Source: Gemmatimonadota bacterium (GTDB lineage Bacteria > Gemmatimonadota > Gemmatimonadetes > Longimicrobiales > Gaopeijiaceae). From it: a DNA stretch of 64,000 bases. Position numbers and translations under genes: made by a program. Shown piece by piece: positions 28,263 to 33,622 of the stretch. The notes under the pieces are model-generated. The model saw only the letters and a list, made by a program, of their open reading frames with translations, searched no databases and was not told where the DNA came from. The stretch lies in the NCBI GenBank assembly GCA_030428885.1, contig JAUIEJ010000008.1:1-64000 (forward strand). Direction: 5' to 3'. The first letter of the stretch is position 1; the number at the start of each line of letters is the position of its first letter.

Positions 28263-28652
28263 TTAAGTCGGGGGCCGCCCGAACCCCAGGGCTTCCGCTG
28301 CCGCGGCCTGACTCCCGTCCAGCGTCAGGAAGTCCAGGCCCCCCGGATCGTCGGCCAGAAAGAGGGCCGTTGCGACGTGCCAGAGGTCGGCCCCCCGCAG
28401 ATATCGCACCTGCAGAACCCGCTCGATCTCGGTCGTCAGGGGCCGGTCGGGAAGGACCCACGACAGCCGTGCCAGCACCGGGTCGCCTCCTTCGACCTCC
28501 TCGCGGGCCAGCGTAGAGCGAAACTCGGCCTCGAGCAGGTTGGCGCTCACGAGCACGTCGTACCCGGCGAGCGTCCGGCCCCACTTCCGCCCCCCCGGCT
28601 CGTCGAACGCCACCGCCACGAGCCAGGAGGTGTCGACGTAGGCGACCTTCAT
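28263..28652 (-). CDS. PIN-domain toxin, VapC type
   Basis: The 129-residue protein starts at ATG 28652, overlapping the antitoxin stop as ATGA. Its PIN acidic residues are visible: YVDTSWL near the N-terminus, LLEAEFRS, RGADLWHVATALFLAD and DFLTLDGSQAAAA. These match the Asp/Glu quartet of metal-dependent ribonucleases. It is normal in length for VapC toxins. Pairing with a Phd/YefM antitoxin in the same operon supports the assignment. The RNA target is unknown. Confidence 0.88.
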   Translation of the reverse strand: MKVAYVDTSWLVAVAFDEPGGRKWGRTLAGYDVLVSANLLEAEFRSTLAREEVEGGDPVLARLSWVLPDRPLTTEIERVLQVRYLRGADLWHVATALFLADDPGGLDFLTLDGSQAAAAEALGFGRPPT

Positions 28653-28927
28653 CCGTGGCGTTCGGCGAGGAAGCGGGCCAGGGCCCCGGGGCGAGAGGCC
28701 ACGGGTCGGGGCGGCGACTCGACTTCGGCGGGGACGGAGAGAAGTCCTCGACCGCGCATCCACTCGATCCGGGCCCCCAGGCCGGTGGCCGGCTCCAGGG
28801 GACGGATTTCCGCCACGGGAGCCCCGTGGTAGGTCACGGTGACCGTGCGGCCCTCACGGACCATGCGGATCACTTCCGAGAAGCGTGACTTGGCTTCGTA
28901 GGTCGAGAAGACGGGCGAGTCGGTCAT
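28649..28927 (-). CDS. Phd/YefM-family antitoxin
   Basis: The 92-residue protein (ATG 28927) has the Phd/YefM N-terminal DNA-binding core: FSTYEAKSRFSEVIRMVREGRTVTVTYHGAPVAEIRPL. The C-terminal half is disordered and Arg/Pro-rich, and would wrap the toxin. An in-frame upstream ATG at 28960 lies across the operator repeats and is less likely. It is the first gene of the pair, so it would repress the operon with the toxin as co-repressor. Confidence 0.88.
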   Translation of the reverse strand: MTDSPVFSTYEAKSRFSEVIRMVREGRTVTVTYHGAPVAEIRPLEPATGLGARIEWMRGRGLLSVPAEVESPPRPVASRPGALARFLAERHG

Positions 28928-28987: not shown

Positions 28988-30205
28988 CTACGAGTCGGTT
29001 CGCTCCGCCCAGTGACGGAGCCGGCGCGCCCGGGCGTCCTTTTCCACGAGGGGCGCGACCCGGTCCTGACCGGCGAGCAGGTCGATCACGACCCGGCGCC
29101 GGCGCGCGAGGACCTCGAAGGGGCGGGTGAGCCGGCGAGCGAGGAGGCGCAGGCCGGTGGTTTGGGGCCCGTAGATGCGTCGCAGGTCGTCGTCGGGCGG
29201 AAAGAGGCTTCCGAGCAGCCCTGCCGCACGCCCGCGCCAGGTGGTCGCGGCGCGAAACCGGACGAAACCCGTGGGGAGGCTCTCGCTGCGGTCCAGCAGG
29301 TACTCTCGCGTAACGGCCACGATCTCGTCGTCGGCGGGTCCGGACCGGAGGGCCGAGAGGGGGGCGGCGGGCACGGGTGAGGCCAGGAGGTCGGCGGCGA
29401 GGGTCAGGGCGACGTAGGCGTAGGGGGCCCGCCCGTCGTCCCGGGCGGTGGCGACGAGGCGGTCCCAGTCGAGGCGGGCGGCCGCCTCGGCGATGAGGGC
29501 GTCGGCATCGCAGAGGCCCTGGAGTCCCGTCAGGAAGCGGTGATCGAAGGCCGTGTGGGTGCAGAGGTGCAGGAGCGCGTCGTCGGGGGCCAGGTGGGCG
29601 ACGGCGCGCCCTCCGTAGTCCCGGGACTCCATCCGTGACCAGAGGGCGTCGAGGTCGACGCGGAACGGTGCGTCGCCGGGGGCGATTCCGGTGTGGATCT
29701 CGACATCGTGGCTGCCCGGGCGCTCGAGGCGGGGCAGGTGGTGGCCGGGGTTGTCCCGTTCCCATTGCGGCCGGGTGGCGAAGCCCCGCTCCACGAGCCG
29801 ACCCTGGAGGCGGCGGGCCGCGTCGGGGCTGAGCAGCAGGTCGATGTCGATCATGTCGCGCACCCCCGGGTCGTCGTAGACCCGGAGGGCCAGGTGGGCT
29901 CCCTTGAGCAAGGCGACCGGGGTCGTGGAGTCCATCCGGGCGAGCATCTCCCGGAGCTGCGCCTCCATCGCCTCGTTCCGCAGTGTGGCGACGCCGTGCA
30001 GGTCCTCGAGTCGCTGGGCCACCTCGGGGGTCAGGAGGGCCCGGTCCGCCCCCAGGCGTCGGTGAAGCAGGGGCGCCACGCCGTGCCAGACGGCGGCCTC
30101 GAGCAACTCGTCGGCGACCTCGCGTCTGCGAGTCCGGAGAAGCCGCGAGAACGCGGGGTCGGTCTCCCGACGTAGCGCCGTGGGAAGCCAGCGCTCCCGG
30201 TTCAC
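28988..30205 (-). CDS. PF14907-type nucleotidyltransferase family protein
   Basis: The GTG at 30205 overlaps the stop of the methyltransferase gene (GTGA). The 405-residue protein has the NTP_transf_5 pattern: VALLKGAHLALRVYDDPGVRDMIDIDLLLSPDAARRL, with the DID metal-binding residues, LVERGF, and HDVEIHTGI. A helical C-terminal half has His-rich LLHLCTHTAFDHRFLTG and ends in a basic region. The family resembles eukaryotic-type nucleotidyltransferases and is commonly near HprK-like and PqqD genes. Here both lie within 3 kb. The acceptor is unknown, and a role in modifying a peptide or surface compound is inference. Confidence 0.78.
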   Translation of the reverse strand: MNRERWLPTALRRETDPAFSRLLRTRRREVADELLEAAVWHGVAPLLHRRLGADRALLTPEVAQRLEDLHGVATLRNEAMEAQLREMLARMDSTTPVALLKGAHLALRVYDDPGVRDMIDIDLLLSPDAARRLQGRLVERGFATRPQWERDNPGHHLPRLERPGSHDVEIHTGIAPGDAPFRVDLDALWSRMESRDYGGRAVAHLAPDDALLHLCTHTAFDHRFLTGLQGLCDADALIAEAAARLDWDRLVATARDDGRAPYAYVALTLAADLLASPVPAAPLSALRSGPADDEIVAVTREYLLDRSESLPTGFVRFRAATTWRGRAAGLLGSLFPPDDDLRRIYGPQTTGLRLLARRLTRPFEVLARRRRVVIDLLAGQDRVAPLVEKDARARRLRHWAERTDS

Positions 30206-31809
30206 CGGGTCTTCCCGCCCATCAGCCTCGCCACGGAGAGGTGGAGCATCACGTGGTCGAGGTGACGGACATCGGGCGCCGCGGCCAGGGCGTCGGGGTT
30301 CGCCGGTCCGTCGCCGTCGGGCCAGCCGCTCCAGTAGCCGGGCGCGCGAGCGAGGAGGTCGGTCAGGGCGGCCGCCGCCTCGGGCGTCCGGCCGAGGCGG
30401 ACTTCGGCCAGGGCGCGCAGGTGGAGCTGGGCCGGGGTGAGGAGCTCGTCGCGGGCGACCTCCTCGAGCCCGTCGAGCACGGCTTCGTGGAGTCCCGCTC
30501 GCGCGAGCACGAGGGTCGCCTTCGTGGCGAGCTGGTCGGTGCCCGTCACCGACGGGAGATCGTTGCGCAGGGCCCGAAGAAGGGCCTCGCGAAGCATGGT
30601 GCGGTCGACGGTCTTCCCGGCTTCGAGGCTCCGGTCGAGATGGGGGATCGCCCCCTCCACCGAGACGGGGTCGAAGCCGGCCATGCGAAGCCAGGCCAGG
30701 GCCGTCCAGCTCTCGAGCTCGCCCTCGTGGGCCAGAATCAAGTCGTCGAGGTTCTGGGCGTCGGGGGGACCGAACCCCAGGAGCCGCGCGCGGGCGGCCT
30801 CTTCGCACCGGCCCAGGGCCACGTTGCCCCCGCGCAGGAACGCCCCCACGACGAAGTCGGAGTCCTCGGCTCGTGGGAATACGGCGGTGGCTCCCCGGGC
30901 CTCGAACACGCGGCCCAGGAGGTCGAAGTTGGTCCGGCAGGCCACGTAGGCGTGGTGGAGGAGTGGCACCTCGTCGGGGAACGCTTCGATGGTGATGGCC
31001 AGATCGCCCGTCAACACGAGGGTGGGGTCGGCACCGTCGCTCAGGGCCCCGAGAAATCGGATGACCTTCACGGGCACCGGCACGTACCCCGTGGCGCCCC
31101 GGCGCCGGTAGCCTTCGATCTCGCGGTCGACGAGAGGGTGGCCCGTGATCGGGACGTCCGTGGGAATCGGCCGATCCTCCGTGCGCACCTCGAGCCCGGA
31201 TAGGTCGGGACGTCCCGACTCCCGCTCCCGCACCTCGCCTTCGAGGGCCACGTGCACCCGATGCACCCGGCCCTCGCGCAGCAGGAGCATGTCGGTGGGC
31301 ACGCTGTCGAAGACGTAGTTCGCGATGACCACTACCGGACGGTCGGTGAGGGGTACGGGCACGCCGTCGAGATCGACCACTTCGGTGGGTGGGGTCTCGT
31401 CGACTCTCAGCACCCCGAGGTGGATCTCCGGGCGCGCGAACCAGCGCGCCATGCGGGGTTCGCCCAACCATGCGCGGGCGTGGGCCGCCGAGGTCTCCGT
31501 CAGCAGGACGTCGACCGGGAGGTCGTCGTCGGGGCTGATCTCGGCGAGGCGACGGGTCCAGTGCCAGCCCAGGAGGCCGCTCCCCGCACCCAGTTCCACG
31601 ACCAGGGGTCGGGCGGTCGAGCCCGCCGCCTCCAGATCGCGCATGAAGGCGGCGATGATCTCCGCGTAGGCGTCTGCGATCCAGGCGTTGCTCGAGATCC
31701 GGCTCGGGACGGTTCCCGACGCCCACGACTCGAGCCCCCGCTCGGTGTAGAACGTCGCGATGGAGTCCCATATCGAGGACTCCTCGAAGGGTCGGAACGA
31801 CTCCTTCAC
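30202..31809 (-). CDS. SAM-dependent methyltransferase-like protein with helical C-terminus
   Basis: The 535-residue protein has a class I SAM-binding glycine motif VVELGAGSGLLG (about 70-81). Further on it has VVIANYVFDSVPTD, which parallels the aNEffDalP motif of MidA/NDUFAF7-type methyltransferases. Residues 350-535 are helical and repeat-like (LAWLRMAGFDPVSVEGA, LVLARAGLHEAVLDGLEEVARDELL), suggesting TPR-like repeats. It sits upstream of and overlaps the nucleotidyltransferase, and its start is only 41 bp from the divergent HprK-like gene. The methyl acceptor is unknown; MidA homologues methylate protein arginine. Confidence 0.66.
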   Translation of the reverse strand: MKESFRPFEESSIWDSIATFYTERGLESWASGTVPSRISSNAWIADAYAEIIAAFMRDLEAAGSTARPLVVELGAGSGLLGWHWTRRLAEISPDDDLPVDVLLTETSAAHARAWLGEPRMARWFARPEIHLGVLRVDETPPTEVVDLDGVPVPLTDRPVVVIANYVFDSVPTDMLLLREGRVHRVHVALEGEVRERESGRPDLSGLEVRTEDRPIPTDVPITGHPLVDREIEGYRRRGATGYVPVPVKVIRFLGALSDGADPTLVLTGDLAITIEAFPDEVPLLHHAYVACRTNFDLLGRVFEARGATAVFPRAEDSDFVVGAFLRGGNVALGRCEEAARARLLGFGPPDAQNLDDLILAHEGELESWTALAWLRMAGFDPVSVEGAIPHLDRSLEAGKTVDRTMLREALLRALRNDLPSVTGTDQLATKATLVLARAGLHEAVLDGLEEVARDELLTPAQLHLRALAEVRLGRTPEAAAALTDLLARAPGYWSGWPDGDGPANPDALAAAPDVRHLDHVMLHLSVARLMGGKTR

Positions 31810-31837
31810 GCCGCCCCCGCGACGGGCCTGCCCGGCC

Positions 31838-31843
31838 TATATT
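31838..31843 (+). promoter_or_regulatory. Candidate -10 box for the HprK-like gene, possibly leaderless
   Basis: TATATT ends seven bases before the ATG at 31851, so transcription could start at or next to the start codon. No ribosome-binding purine run is present, and the gap to the divergent methyltransferase gene is only 41 bp. No clear -35 box is visible. Confidence 0.35.
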
Positions 31844-31850
31844 CCCGAGC

Positions 31851-32633
31851 ATGAGCCCACTCGCCACCGTCTCCGCCGTCGAGGCCTTCGGGGTCCGAAT
31901 CCGCATCCGGGCGCCCGCCGGGCTCCACGACGGCGTAGATGTGCGGCCCCCGCCGTCCGCACGCCCCCACCAGGGCAGGGAGTGGGACGTCGAGTACGTC
32001 GTGCGTCCGGCCGCGGCCGGTGGGATCGACGTCGCCCGCGGCGGCGAACCGATGGGCCGGTTCGCCGACATCGCCGCGGCCAGCTTCGAAATCGAGTCGG
32101 ATCAGCATTTCCGGGTTGCGGTGACGGCGCGAGACCACCTGTTCGTCCACGCCGGGGTGGTGCTCGTCGGCGACCGGGCCCTGGTCCTGCCGGGGCGGAC
32201 CCTGGCGGGAGAAAGTACGCTGGTCCTGGCGCTGGTGAGAACCGGAGCCACGTACTTTTCCGACGAATTCGCGGTGCTCGACGCCCAGGGGCGGGTCCAT
32301 GCGTACCGGAAGCCGTTGTCGGAGCGCGTCGAGGGCGCTCCCCGTCCGCGCCTCCACCCGCCGGAAACGTTGGGGGGCTCCACCGACGGACGGGGCCGCA
32401 GCCTCGGCTGGGTCGTCTCCACCCGGTTTCGGCCCGCCGGAGCCTGGGCTCCCGCCCCGATGAGTCGTGCCGATGCGGTCATGGCGCTCTTTGACAACAC
32501 GGTATTGGCCCGGGAGCGGCCCGACTTCGCTCTGGAGCGCCTCACGCGGGCCGTGGAAGGGGCCCATGCACTTCGCGGCGACCGGGGAGAGGCCCCGATC
32601 GCCGCGAAGAGGATCCTGGAAGATCTGGCGTAG
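31851..32633 (+). CDS. HprK-like (HPr kinase-related) protein with altered P-loop
   Basis: The 260-residue protein resembles the C-terminal kinase half of HPr kinase/phosphatase. His100 (LFVHAGVV) precedes a phosphate-loop segment, LPGRTLAGESTLV (113-125), followed by TGATYFSDEFAVLD, the counterpart of the HprK SDD region. The conserved P-loop lysine is Glu121 (codon GAA at 32211), which should weaken ATP binding. The N-terminal hundred residues are beta-rich and not HPr-specific. There are no HPr or PTS genes in the window, so classical sugar regulation is unlikely. It lies opposite the PqqD gene, with stops three bases apart, inside the nucleotidyltransferase island. A pseudokinase role is possible. 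Confidence 0.72.
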   Translation: MSPLATVSAVEAFGVRIRIRAPAGLHDGVDVRPPPSARPHQGREWDVEYVVRPAAAGGIDVARGGEPMGRFADIAAASFEIESDQHFRVAVTARDHLFVHAGVVLVGDRALVLPGRTLAGESTLVLALVRTGATYFSDEFAVLDAQGRVHAYRKPLSERVEGAPRPRLHPPETLGGSTDGRGRSLGWVVSTRFRPAGAWAPAPMSRADAVMALFDNTVLARERPDFALERLTRAVEGAHALRGDRGEAPIAAKRILEDLA

Positions 32634-32636
32634 GGG

Positions 32637-33041
32637 TCACCCCTTCTTCTTTCCCGCCCCCTTCTTCTTGACCGGGGCGCCGCCCGATTGGGCCTGGGCC
32701 GCCAGCGGCGCGTTGATCGACGTGATGGCCGGGAGCATGAGCCCCACGGCGGCAGCGGCGGCCACGCGGGCGAGTGCCTGGCGACGGGTCACGGGAAGGG
32801 CCTCGCCGTCGGCCAGCAGCCCGGCCTGGGCCAGGGTGTCGATGGTGAGCTCGACGACGCTCTCGTCGATCTCGAGTTCGGCGGCGAGATCGGCCACGGA
32901 GCGGCTGCCGTCGAGGAGCGGCCAGACCGACGCCACGGTCTCGTTCAGGCGGTGGGCCTTCTTCGACGTTTTGTCGTAGACGACGGCTTCCTGATCGACG
33001 ACGTGGACGAGGACGTCCTGGTGGCGGGCCTTCGGGTTCAT
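32637..33041 (-). CDS. PqqD-family protein with Tat-like tail
   Basis: The 134-residue protein (ATG 33041, AGGAG eight bases upstream) has a PqqD/RRE fold at about 1-82: VLVHVVDQEAVVYDKTSKKAHRLNETVASVWPLLDG, then VADLAAELEID and TLAQAGLL. Residues 85-118 look like a twin-arginine export signal in the wrong place: TRRQAL, an Ala-rich hydrophobic stretch, MLPAITSINAP and AAQAQ. A short Lys/Gly tail ends the protein (KKKGAGKKKG). PqqD domains hold precursor peptides for modifying enzymes, so this could be a peptide chaperone with a membrane tail, or leader and exported core in one chain. It is convergent with the HprK-like gene. Confidence 0.78.
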   Translation of the reverse strand: MNPKARHQDVLVHVVDQEAVVYDKTSKKAHRLNETVASVWPLLDGSRSVADLAAELEIDESVVELTIDTLAQAGLLADGEALPVTRRQALARVAAAAAVGLMLPAITSINAPLAAQAQSGGAPVKKKGAGKKKG

Positions 33042-33079: not shown

Positions 33080-33622
33080 TTAACCGACGTCGTGCCGGAA
33101 GGCAAGAGGAGCGTTCGACCCGCCCGACGGCCAGCGCACCGTGGCCCCCTCGTCGGGCACGAGGATGATGCGCTTCGGGACGCGCTCCACCTGTTCCTGG
33201 GGAGTCGTCTCCCACTCGGCGCAGACCATCCGCGCGGAGCGTTCCTCCCAGGAGAGGCAGCGTCGCCGGTAACCCTCCCGTCGGCGGGTCTCCCGGACCG
33301 TGGCCACCAGTTCGCCCTCGTCGTTGGGAACGATGTCCATGTAGACGGGGCATGGGACCGTGTACCCGCCCCCGCGCGGTCTCGGGGTCGCCTCGCAGAC
33401 GTTCCGCTCTCCCCGGTCGCCGTCCCAGATGACGAGACCGTCGGGCGAGAAGATGAGGTGCCCGGCGTAGTCGACCCCGTCGATGGTGGTCAACATGTCC
33501 CAACTGCCCTCGAGGATGGGAAGGGGATCGGACTGCAGGACCGAGGCACAGCCCAGGAGCACCGACGCGGCGAGGGCGGCGGCACAGCTACGGCTTGCCC
33601 GGGATGGAACGGGTGCGATCAT
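33080..33622 (-). CDS. Hypothetical lipoprotein
   Basis: The 180-residue product has a signal with lipobox LLGC (Cys25). A beta-rich domain follows, with SWDMLTTIDGVDYAGHLIFSP and later cysteines in NVCEATP, PCPVY, RRCLSW and MVCAEW, which may form disulfides outside the cytoplasm. I do not recognise the family. It lies 38 bp upstream of, and on the same strand as, the PqqD gene, so they may share a transcript. TAGGTT six bases before its ATG is another possible leaderless promoter. Confidence 0.68.
   Translation of the reverse strand: MIAPVPSRASRSCAAALAASVLLGCASVLQSDPLPILEGSWDMLTTIDGVDYAGHLIFSPDGLVIWDGDRGERNVCEATPRPRGGGYTVPCPVYMDIVPNDEGELVATVRETRRREGYRRRCLSWEERSARMVCAEWETTPQEQVERVPKRIILVPDEGATVRWPSGGSNAPLAFRHDVG

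Follow-up and report, generated by a model that had tools for sequence, protein, structure and literature searches.

A widespread kinase, nucleotidyltransferase and PqqD gene module with the PqqD protein as a candidate RiPP-like precursor

Introduction

Kinases that phosphorylate ribosomally synthesized and post-translationally modified peptides (RiPPs), and the nucleotidyltransferase partners of these kinases, have been studied in lasso peptide and linear polyphosphorylated peptide (LPP) clusters of Bacillota. LPP clusters encode a RiPP recognition element (RRE), an HprK and an NTP transferase; the core peptide (AQS...) is freed by a signal-peptidase homologue and LppK phosphorylates Ser3 of AQSNWK, next to the signal-peptidase-type cut, while the chemistry of the partner enzyme was left unsolved in that study (PMC13381572). 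In pseudomycoidin, PsmK phosphorylates a Ser and PsmN adds a hexose to the phosphoserine (PMC9266682). Here we analyse a locus at positions 28988-33041 of a 64,000-nucleotide stretch of Gemmatimonadota DNA (the window; contig JAUIEJ010000008.1, assembly GCA_030428885.1), in which genes for a PF14907 nucleotidyltransferase, a methyltransferase-like protein, an HprK-like kinase and a PqqD-domain protein lie together. The locus probably belongs to a broad, apparently undescribed RiPP-like family in which the PqqD protein is itself the precursor, recognition domain and substrate in one.

LPP clusters are the nearest tested system. The likeness lies in the RRE, the HprK-like kinase encoded adjacent to it and the NTP transferase, in precursors with a constant N-terminus and a hypervariable C-terminus, and in a Ser near a signal-peptidase-type cut. 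In LPP, however, the RRE and the precursor are separate and discrete, whereas here an RRE, a twin-arginine translocation (Tat) signal and a tail form one protein. LPP clusters also have a dedicated SipW-like peptidase and MsbA-like exporter, and occur in Bacillota; the present module is found mostly in other phyla, and neither a SipW-like SpI peptidase nor an MsbA-like exporter was encoded among the scanned window neighbours or belonged to the 25 families that occur most often around 45 loci. Lasso clusters of the paeninodin/pseudomycoidin type (PMC9266682) share an HprK-like kinase, an annotated nucleotidyltransferase and a PqqD-like B1 protein, but their Ser is at the C-terminus rather than near the tail start and their precursor is separate. 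A lasso cluster was rejected as an identity for the locus, with no B2 transglutaminase-like peptidase or C asparagine-synthetase-like cyclase among the scanned window neighbours or the recurring neighbours elsewhere. The PqqD of pyrroloquinoline quinone biosynthesis has a similar RRE fold; the present protein differs in having no radical SAM partner and in carrying the additional Tat signal and peptide.

Results

A Tat-type signal and a variable tail follow the PqqD domain

The features of the PqqD gene are as follows.

32637-33041, minus strand: whole PqqD-Tat-tail gene, 134 amino acids
32808..33035, minus strand: PqqD/RRE domain, residues 3-78 of the candidate precursor (PF05402, 31 bits)
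32691..32792, minus strand: internal twin-arginine signal, residues 84-117 (VTRRQALARVAAAAAVGLMLPAITSINAPLAAQA), placed by family alignment
32640..32690, minus strand: hypervariable tail, residues 118-134 (QSGGAPVKKKGAGKKKG), putative exported peptide; tails are unrelated between close relatives
32685..32687, minus strand: Ser119 codon (TCG), +2 after AxA, proposed phosphorylation site from conservation and analogy with LPP Ser3

A first-pass annotation, made from the letters of the window, had assigned this gene correctly to the PqqD family (PF05402, cutoff 23.4 bits) and had remarked on a tail. Read from its sequence, that tail consists of a twin-arginine signal and, after it, a short peptide (VTRRQALARVAAAAAVGLMLPAITSINAPLAAQA-QSGGAPVKKKGAGKKKG), which the annotation had overlooked. 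The same layout, a PqqD/RRE domain, a twin-arginine signal ending in PxxxS[I/V]xAPxxAxA and a hypervariable tail, recurs in about 70 relatives, and is near-universal among the PqqD proteins compared, namely those near HprK-like genes in the named loci and in Gemmatimonadota genomes. In the family alignment (window numbering), the twin arginines are present in 73/73 proteins, Pro104 in 69/70, Ser/Thr108 in 67/71, Pro112 in 70/71 and Ala117 in 61/71; conservation ends after Ser/Thr119, two residues into the tail (66/71, 93%, vs 6-24% Ser/Thr at other early tail positions). The window protein retains RR, S108, P112 and S119. It has all the features of a Tat signal (S/T-R-R-x-phi-phi, a hydrophobic region and AxA), and a TatC gene was found in the window genome. 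As a crude control, ordinary Tat signals were taken from related genomes: of 15, one had Ser/Thr at +2 and none the PxxxSIxAP motif; a control drawn from any RR-signal within the loci gave no independent set, as nearly all matches were the PqqD-Tat proteins themselves.

The AF2 model of the window PqqD protein has three strands followed by three helices, the peptide-binding winged-helix fold of an RRE. Its best fold matches (Z 9.0-9.6) are the lasso RREs TfuB1 (Z 9.6) and TbiB1 (Z 9.2), which were crystallised with leader peptides. A further strand is predicted at residues 106-110 (ITSIN), after the signal helix. Since leaders bound to an RRE form a strand on beta-3 (PMC12710340), the conserved segment that follows the signal helix may dock on its own RRE in cis, and such docking would explain a conservation that extends far beyond the needs of a plain signal peptide.

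Tails have the character of peptide products

Even close relatives have unrelated tails (ESDGAICDAPCTF in G020, QSGGGQGYTGQQRHKRRRRGRKGHKGHRGQNWS in L043). Among the 71 tails, 51 have at least four Cys, and in 49 of these the Cys count is even, which is what disulfide bonding would predict. Loose inhibitor cystine-knot (ICK)-like spacing was found in 20 tails (for example ASCKAKGKGCTTGAECCSGVCGPGNLCL and GSCKASGASCNSGFECCSGYCNAGTCA), against a mean of 2.05 and a maximum of 7 in shuffles, and tails of the ICK type occur in L084, L098 and L119; other tails are Gln/Asn-rich, Thr-rich or Lys/Arg-rich. Several loci carry tandem PqqD-Tat copies with differing tails. A Rhodothermia contig (L079, 3232-8510) encodes two HprK-like proteins and a tandem array of five PqqD-Tat proteins, whose tails are SD/SNS-rich and Cys-rich.

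MauE proteins belong to a family linked to disulfide formation. The MauE domain was the commonest extra domain near the module (6/136 scanned neighbours from 45 loci), and given that link its recurrence fits with the Cys-rich tails and suggests disulfide formation in exported tails. The MauE-domain membrane proteins, some with a thioredoxin-like part, include those at L136 3810-4820, L137 7946-8935, L145 8378-9301 and L050 8322-9233.

The constant leader, hypervariable tail, +2 Ser/Thr, even Cys counts, ICK-like spacing and tandem copies are substrate-like and make the PqqD tail the better candidate substrate. A different reading is that the PqqD protein is a membrane-anchored chaperone, with the RRE inside and the tail as an extracytoplasmic domain, and acts on a distinct precursor whose gene is unlinked. 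Anchoring could come from a Tat-type helix that stays uncleaved, and paeninodin-like and LPP systems do encode the RRE apart from the precursor. We found no short frame for a separate precursor, however, and no small gene recurred among the neighbours of 91 kinase loci (frames of at least 90 amino acids compared); furthermore, hypervariable and duplicated tails, often with a cystine-knot-like pattern, are what one would expect of a product, and the AxA and +2 Ser are conserved. We therefore regard an anchored chaperone as unlikely. The lone small neighbour on the PqqD strand in the window (33080-33562, lipoprotein-like, no Pfam match) was set aside as lying outside the conserved set.

A second question is the fate of the tail. 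The phosphoserine could serve to link the tail to a surface polysaccharide or a phosphoglycan, so that the module would make a cell-bound glycopeptide instead of a free one. PsmN sets a precedent for adding hexose to phosphoserine (PMC9266682), LPP clusters occur in capsule loci (PMC13381572), and polysaccharide genes, GT2 or GT4, are present in L137, L138 and several other loci. The Thr-rich and PT-rich tails look mucin-like: in Nostoc (L076 6541-7847) they consist almost wholly of Thr, and in an Acidimicrobiales locus (L117 5303-6808) a tail of more than 350 amino acids has APT/PTP repeats, each a possible glycosylation scaffold on the same leader. On the other hand, the window and many other loci lie outside polysaccharide clusters, and we regard glycan attachment as unlikely.

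The kinase and the nucleotidyltransferase

The remaining features of the locus are as follows.

31851-32633, plus strand: HprK-like kinase gene, 260 amino acids (TIGR04352, E 3.4e-14)
32211..32213, plus strand: Glu121 codon GAA at the Walker A Lys position (GRTLAGEST); Lys in at least 88 of 91 kinases
28988-30205, minus strand: PF14907 (NTP_transf_5) nucleotidyltransferase gene, GTG start (152 bits, cutoff 31.2)
30202-31809, minus strand: S-adenosylmethionine (SAM) methyltransferase-like gene, GTG start, MidA/PF02636-like with a TPR-like C-terminal part; accessory

The coordinates and spacings that had been reported for this four-gene island all proved correct. The nucleotidyltransferase and methyltransferase genes overlap by 4 bases, the divergent HprK-like gene lies 41 bp from the methyltransferase start, and its stop converges on the PqqD gene with a 3-bp gap; all four frames are intact. 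A PIN-domain toxin and Phd/YefM-type antitoxin pair (28263-28927) lies directly downstream of the nucleotidyltransferase gene.

The assignment of the nucleotidyltransferase to PF14907 is borne out by its score, and the protein retains the family-conserved K-G, Y, R, DxD, H and D. The AF2 model of the kinase (pLDDT 96.2) matched PEPCK (1.7e-5) and the HPr kinase 3tqf (8.8e-4) in Foldseek with probability 1.00; the kinase profile found no PDB chain at E 0.01, and the kinship is seen by fold comparison only. The first-pass annotation had called the protein HprK-related and had likened the locus, as a distinct version, to sets of the HPr-rel-A type. The relationship holds at a distance, TIGR04352 being the best NCBIfam match of the kinase, and HprK, PqqD and nucleotidyltransferase genes do travel together; neither TIGR model reaches its NCBI cutoff, however, with TIGR04352 at 52.6 bits vs 200 and TIGR04353 at 21.6 vs 35, and HPr-rel-A identity was rejected. 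The distantly related kinase and PqqD domain would be the ground for placing the locus in an HPr-rel-A set, or for seeing in it an HPr-like regulatory phosphorylation switch. Against this, the partner here is of the exported type, whereas the HPr-rel-A PqqD model has 74 positions without signal or tail, and we consider both highly improbable.

The P-loop of the window kinase, a point missed in the first-pass annotation, has Glu121 in place of the Walker A Lys. Among the 91 kinases the position is Lys in at least 88, Arg in one, not resolved by pattern in L083 and Glu in the window; the GAA codon is one base from AAA. The Arg (PLTGRTTL) occurs in a second HprK-like paralogue of an actinobacterial locus (L051 3936-4973), possibly a non-kinase partner. 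One explanation for Glu121 is that the window copy is decaying, with a dead kinase and the modified peptide lost there while the family functions elsewhere, which is compatible with the PqqD protein being a precursor. The substitution itself, the broken or lost methyltransferase of three relatives, the Cys-free low-complexity tail and the patchy occurrence of the module in the taxonomic family would all fit decay. Yet the four frames are intact, the conserved nucleotidyltransferase residues, the HAG and SDE motifs of HprK and RR, S108, P112 and S119 of the PqqD protein are kept, and the single base may be an assembly error. On balance decay is rather unlikely.

Co-occurrence and distribution of the module

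The HprK-like kinase, the PF14907 nucleotidyltransferase and the PqqD protein form a real module, grouped far beyond chance. In 91 distinct HprK loci, gathered with the kinase as bait and many of them from metagenome bins, PqqD-Tat lies within 6 kb of the kinase in 61, the nucleotidyltransferase in 59 and at least one of the two in 73. HprK and PqqD are separated by a median of 18 bp, and 53 of 58 close pairs are co-directional; the Acidobacteria locus L071, for example, is an intact cluster in the order HprK-PqqD-nucleotidyltransferase. The inverted layout of the window is shared with G020 and L043. All 13 genomes examined with a kinase locus lacking both neighbours hold a PqqD-Tat (A3) match elsewhere, which runs through the signal in 11 and covers the PqqD domain only in two (G418, G423). 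Across 395 Gemmatimonadota genomes, the kinase profile matched 14 and full-length PqqD-Tat 18, including all 14 (Fisher p 1.5e-22); in 13 of these 14, kinase and PqqD-Tat share a contig and lie no more than a few kb apart. Of the four PqqD-Tat genomes without a match to the kinase profile, three encode a divergent HprK as well as a nucleotidyltransferase (L136-L138).

By contig title the module occurs in at least 10 phyla; carriers include Gemmatimonadota, Acidobacteria, Cyanobacteria, Chloroflexi, Armatimonadota, Abditibacteriales, Actinobacteria, Myxococcales/Deltaproteobacteria, Rokuibacteriota, Calditrichota, Rhodothermia and alphaproteobacteria. Its distribution is patchy within the taxonomic family of the window (12/96 genomes). 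In five Gemmatimonadota loci (L019, L020, L024, L135, L140), the kinase/PqqD-Tat genes sit beside or between an rpoC-like gene and rpsL/rpsG/fusA, a recurrent site inside a core operon; HprK and PqqD are separated by pseudopilin-like genes in L020.

The methyltransferase, which had been taken as a member of the set, does not share this co-occurrence. It is present in 2/395 Gemmatimonadota genomes, frameshifted in G020, absent from G042 and internally deleted in L043; core membership is ruled out by this rarity and degeneration, which mark the gene, by sequence, as a lineage-specific, dispensable accessory that relatives are losing. The MidA-like assignment is weak (PF02636 17.3 bits, below the cutoff of 23.3), although SAM motif I (VVELGAGSG) is visible, and comparison with PDB sequences gave no convincing match. 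The intact window enzyme may methylate the tail, a putative role.

Discussion

We propose that in this family the RRE would, in cis, present the PxxxS[I/V]xAPxxAxA-x-S/T segment to the HprK-like kinase in the cytoplasm, and that the kinase would phosphorylate the Ser/Thr at +2. The phosphate would then probably receive a nucleotidyl or sugar moiety from the PF14907 enzyme. The tail would leave by Tat, a signal peptidase, presumably the housekeeping one, would cut after AxA, and Cys-rich tails would oxidise outside, in some loci with the help of MauE/thioredoxin proteins. The peptides could act as bacteriocins, signals or surface glycopeptides. The proposal draws on LPP and pseudomycoidin as precedents, because they share the kinase, the transferase and the RRE; phosphorylation at the +2 Ser is what we infer from its conservation and from Ser3 of LPP. 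The earlier suggestion of a peptide or surface-molecule modification system was of the right kind as regards peptide modification, without the methyltransferase as a defining member and outside HPr-rel-A at the NCBI cut-offs. The lack of co-occurrence that would have told against it was not seen for three of the four genes.

Several points weigh against this proposal. For every member, modification, export and product rest on inference, and the nucleotidyltransferase step is the weakest part, because no activity was seen for LppN in the LPP work (PMC13381572). It is unusual for a Tat signal to be preceded by a domain of 80 residues; TIGR01409 scores L137 above its cutoff and the window protein slightly under it (15.7 bits vs 16.7). 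At the predicted 106-110 strand pLDDT is only about 73, and its pairing with the RRE is conjectural. In the window itself, the tail is short, lysine-rich and Cys-free, and the kinase, without the P-loop Lys, may be impaired or inactive, or the base may be an error.

A literature search returned nothing that describes an RRE-Tat-precursor fusion, nor any mention of TIGR04352, TIGR04353 or PF14907. Of the PF05402 proteins, 21% exceed the length of a discrete RRE without containing any further Pfam domain (PMC12710340), and the PqqD-Tat family may account for some of these. The module is a compact kinase/transferase/substrate version of the phosphorylating RiPP systems across Gemmatimonadota, Acidobacteria, Cyanobacteria, Chloroflexi, Myxococcota and others, in which the modification site is narrowed by prediction to a single residue and neither a dedicated protease nor a dedicated exporter would need reconstitution, and the family offers putative bacterial cystine-knot peptides. 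Perhaps, and we put this forward tentatively as a possibility that falls short of probable, these loci make up a pan-phylum RiPP-like class in which the recognition element is fused to the precursor, and of which the Tat-exported product, often a cystine-knot, would carry a phosphoserine-linked nucleotide or sugar at position 2.

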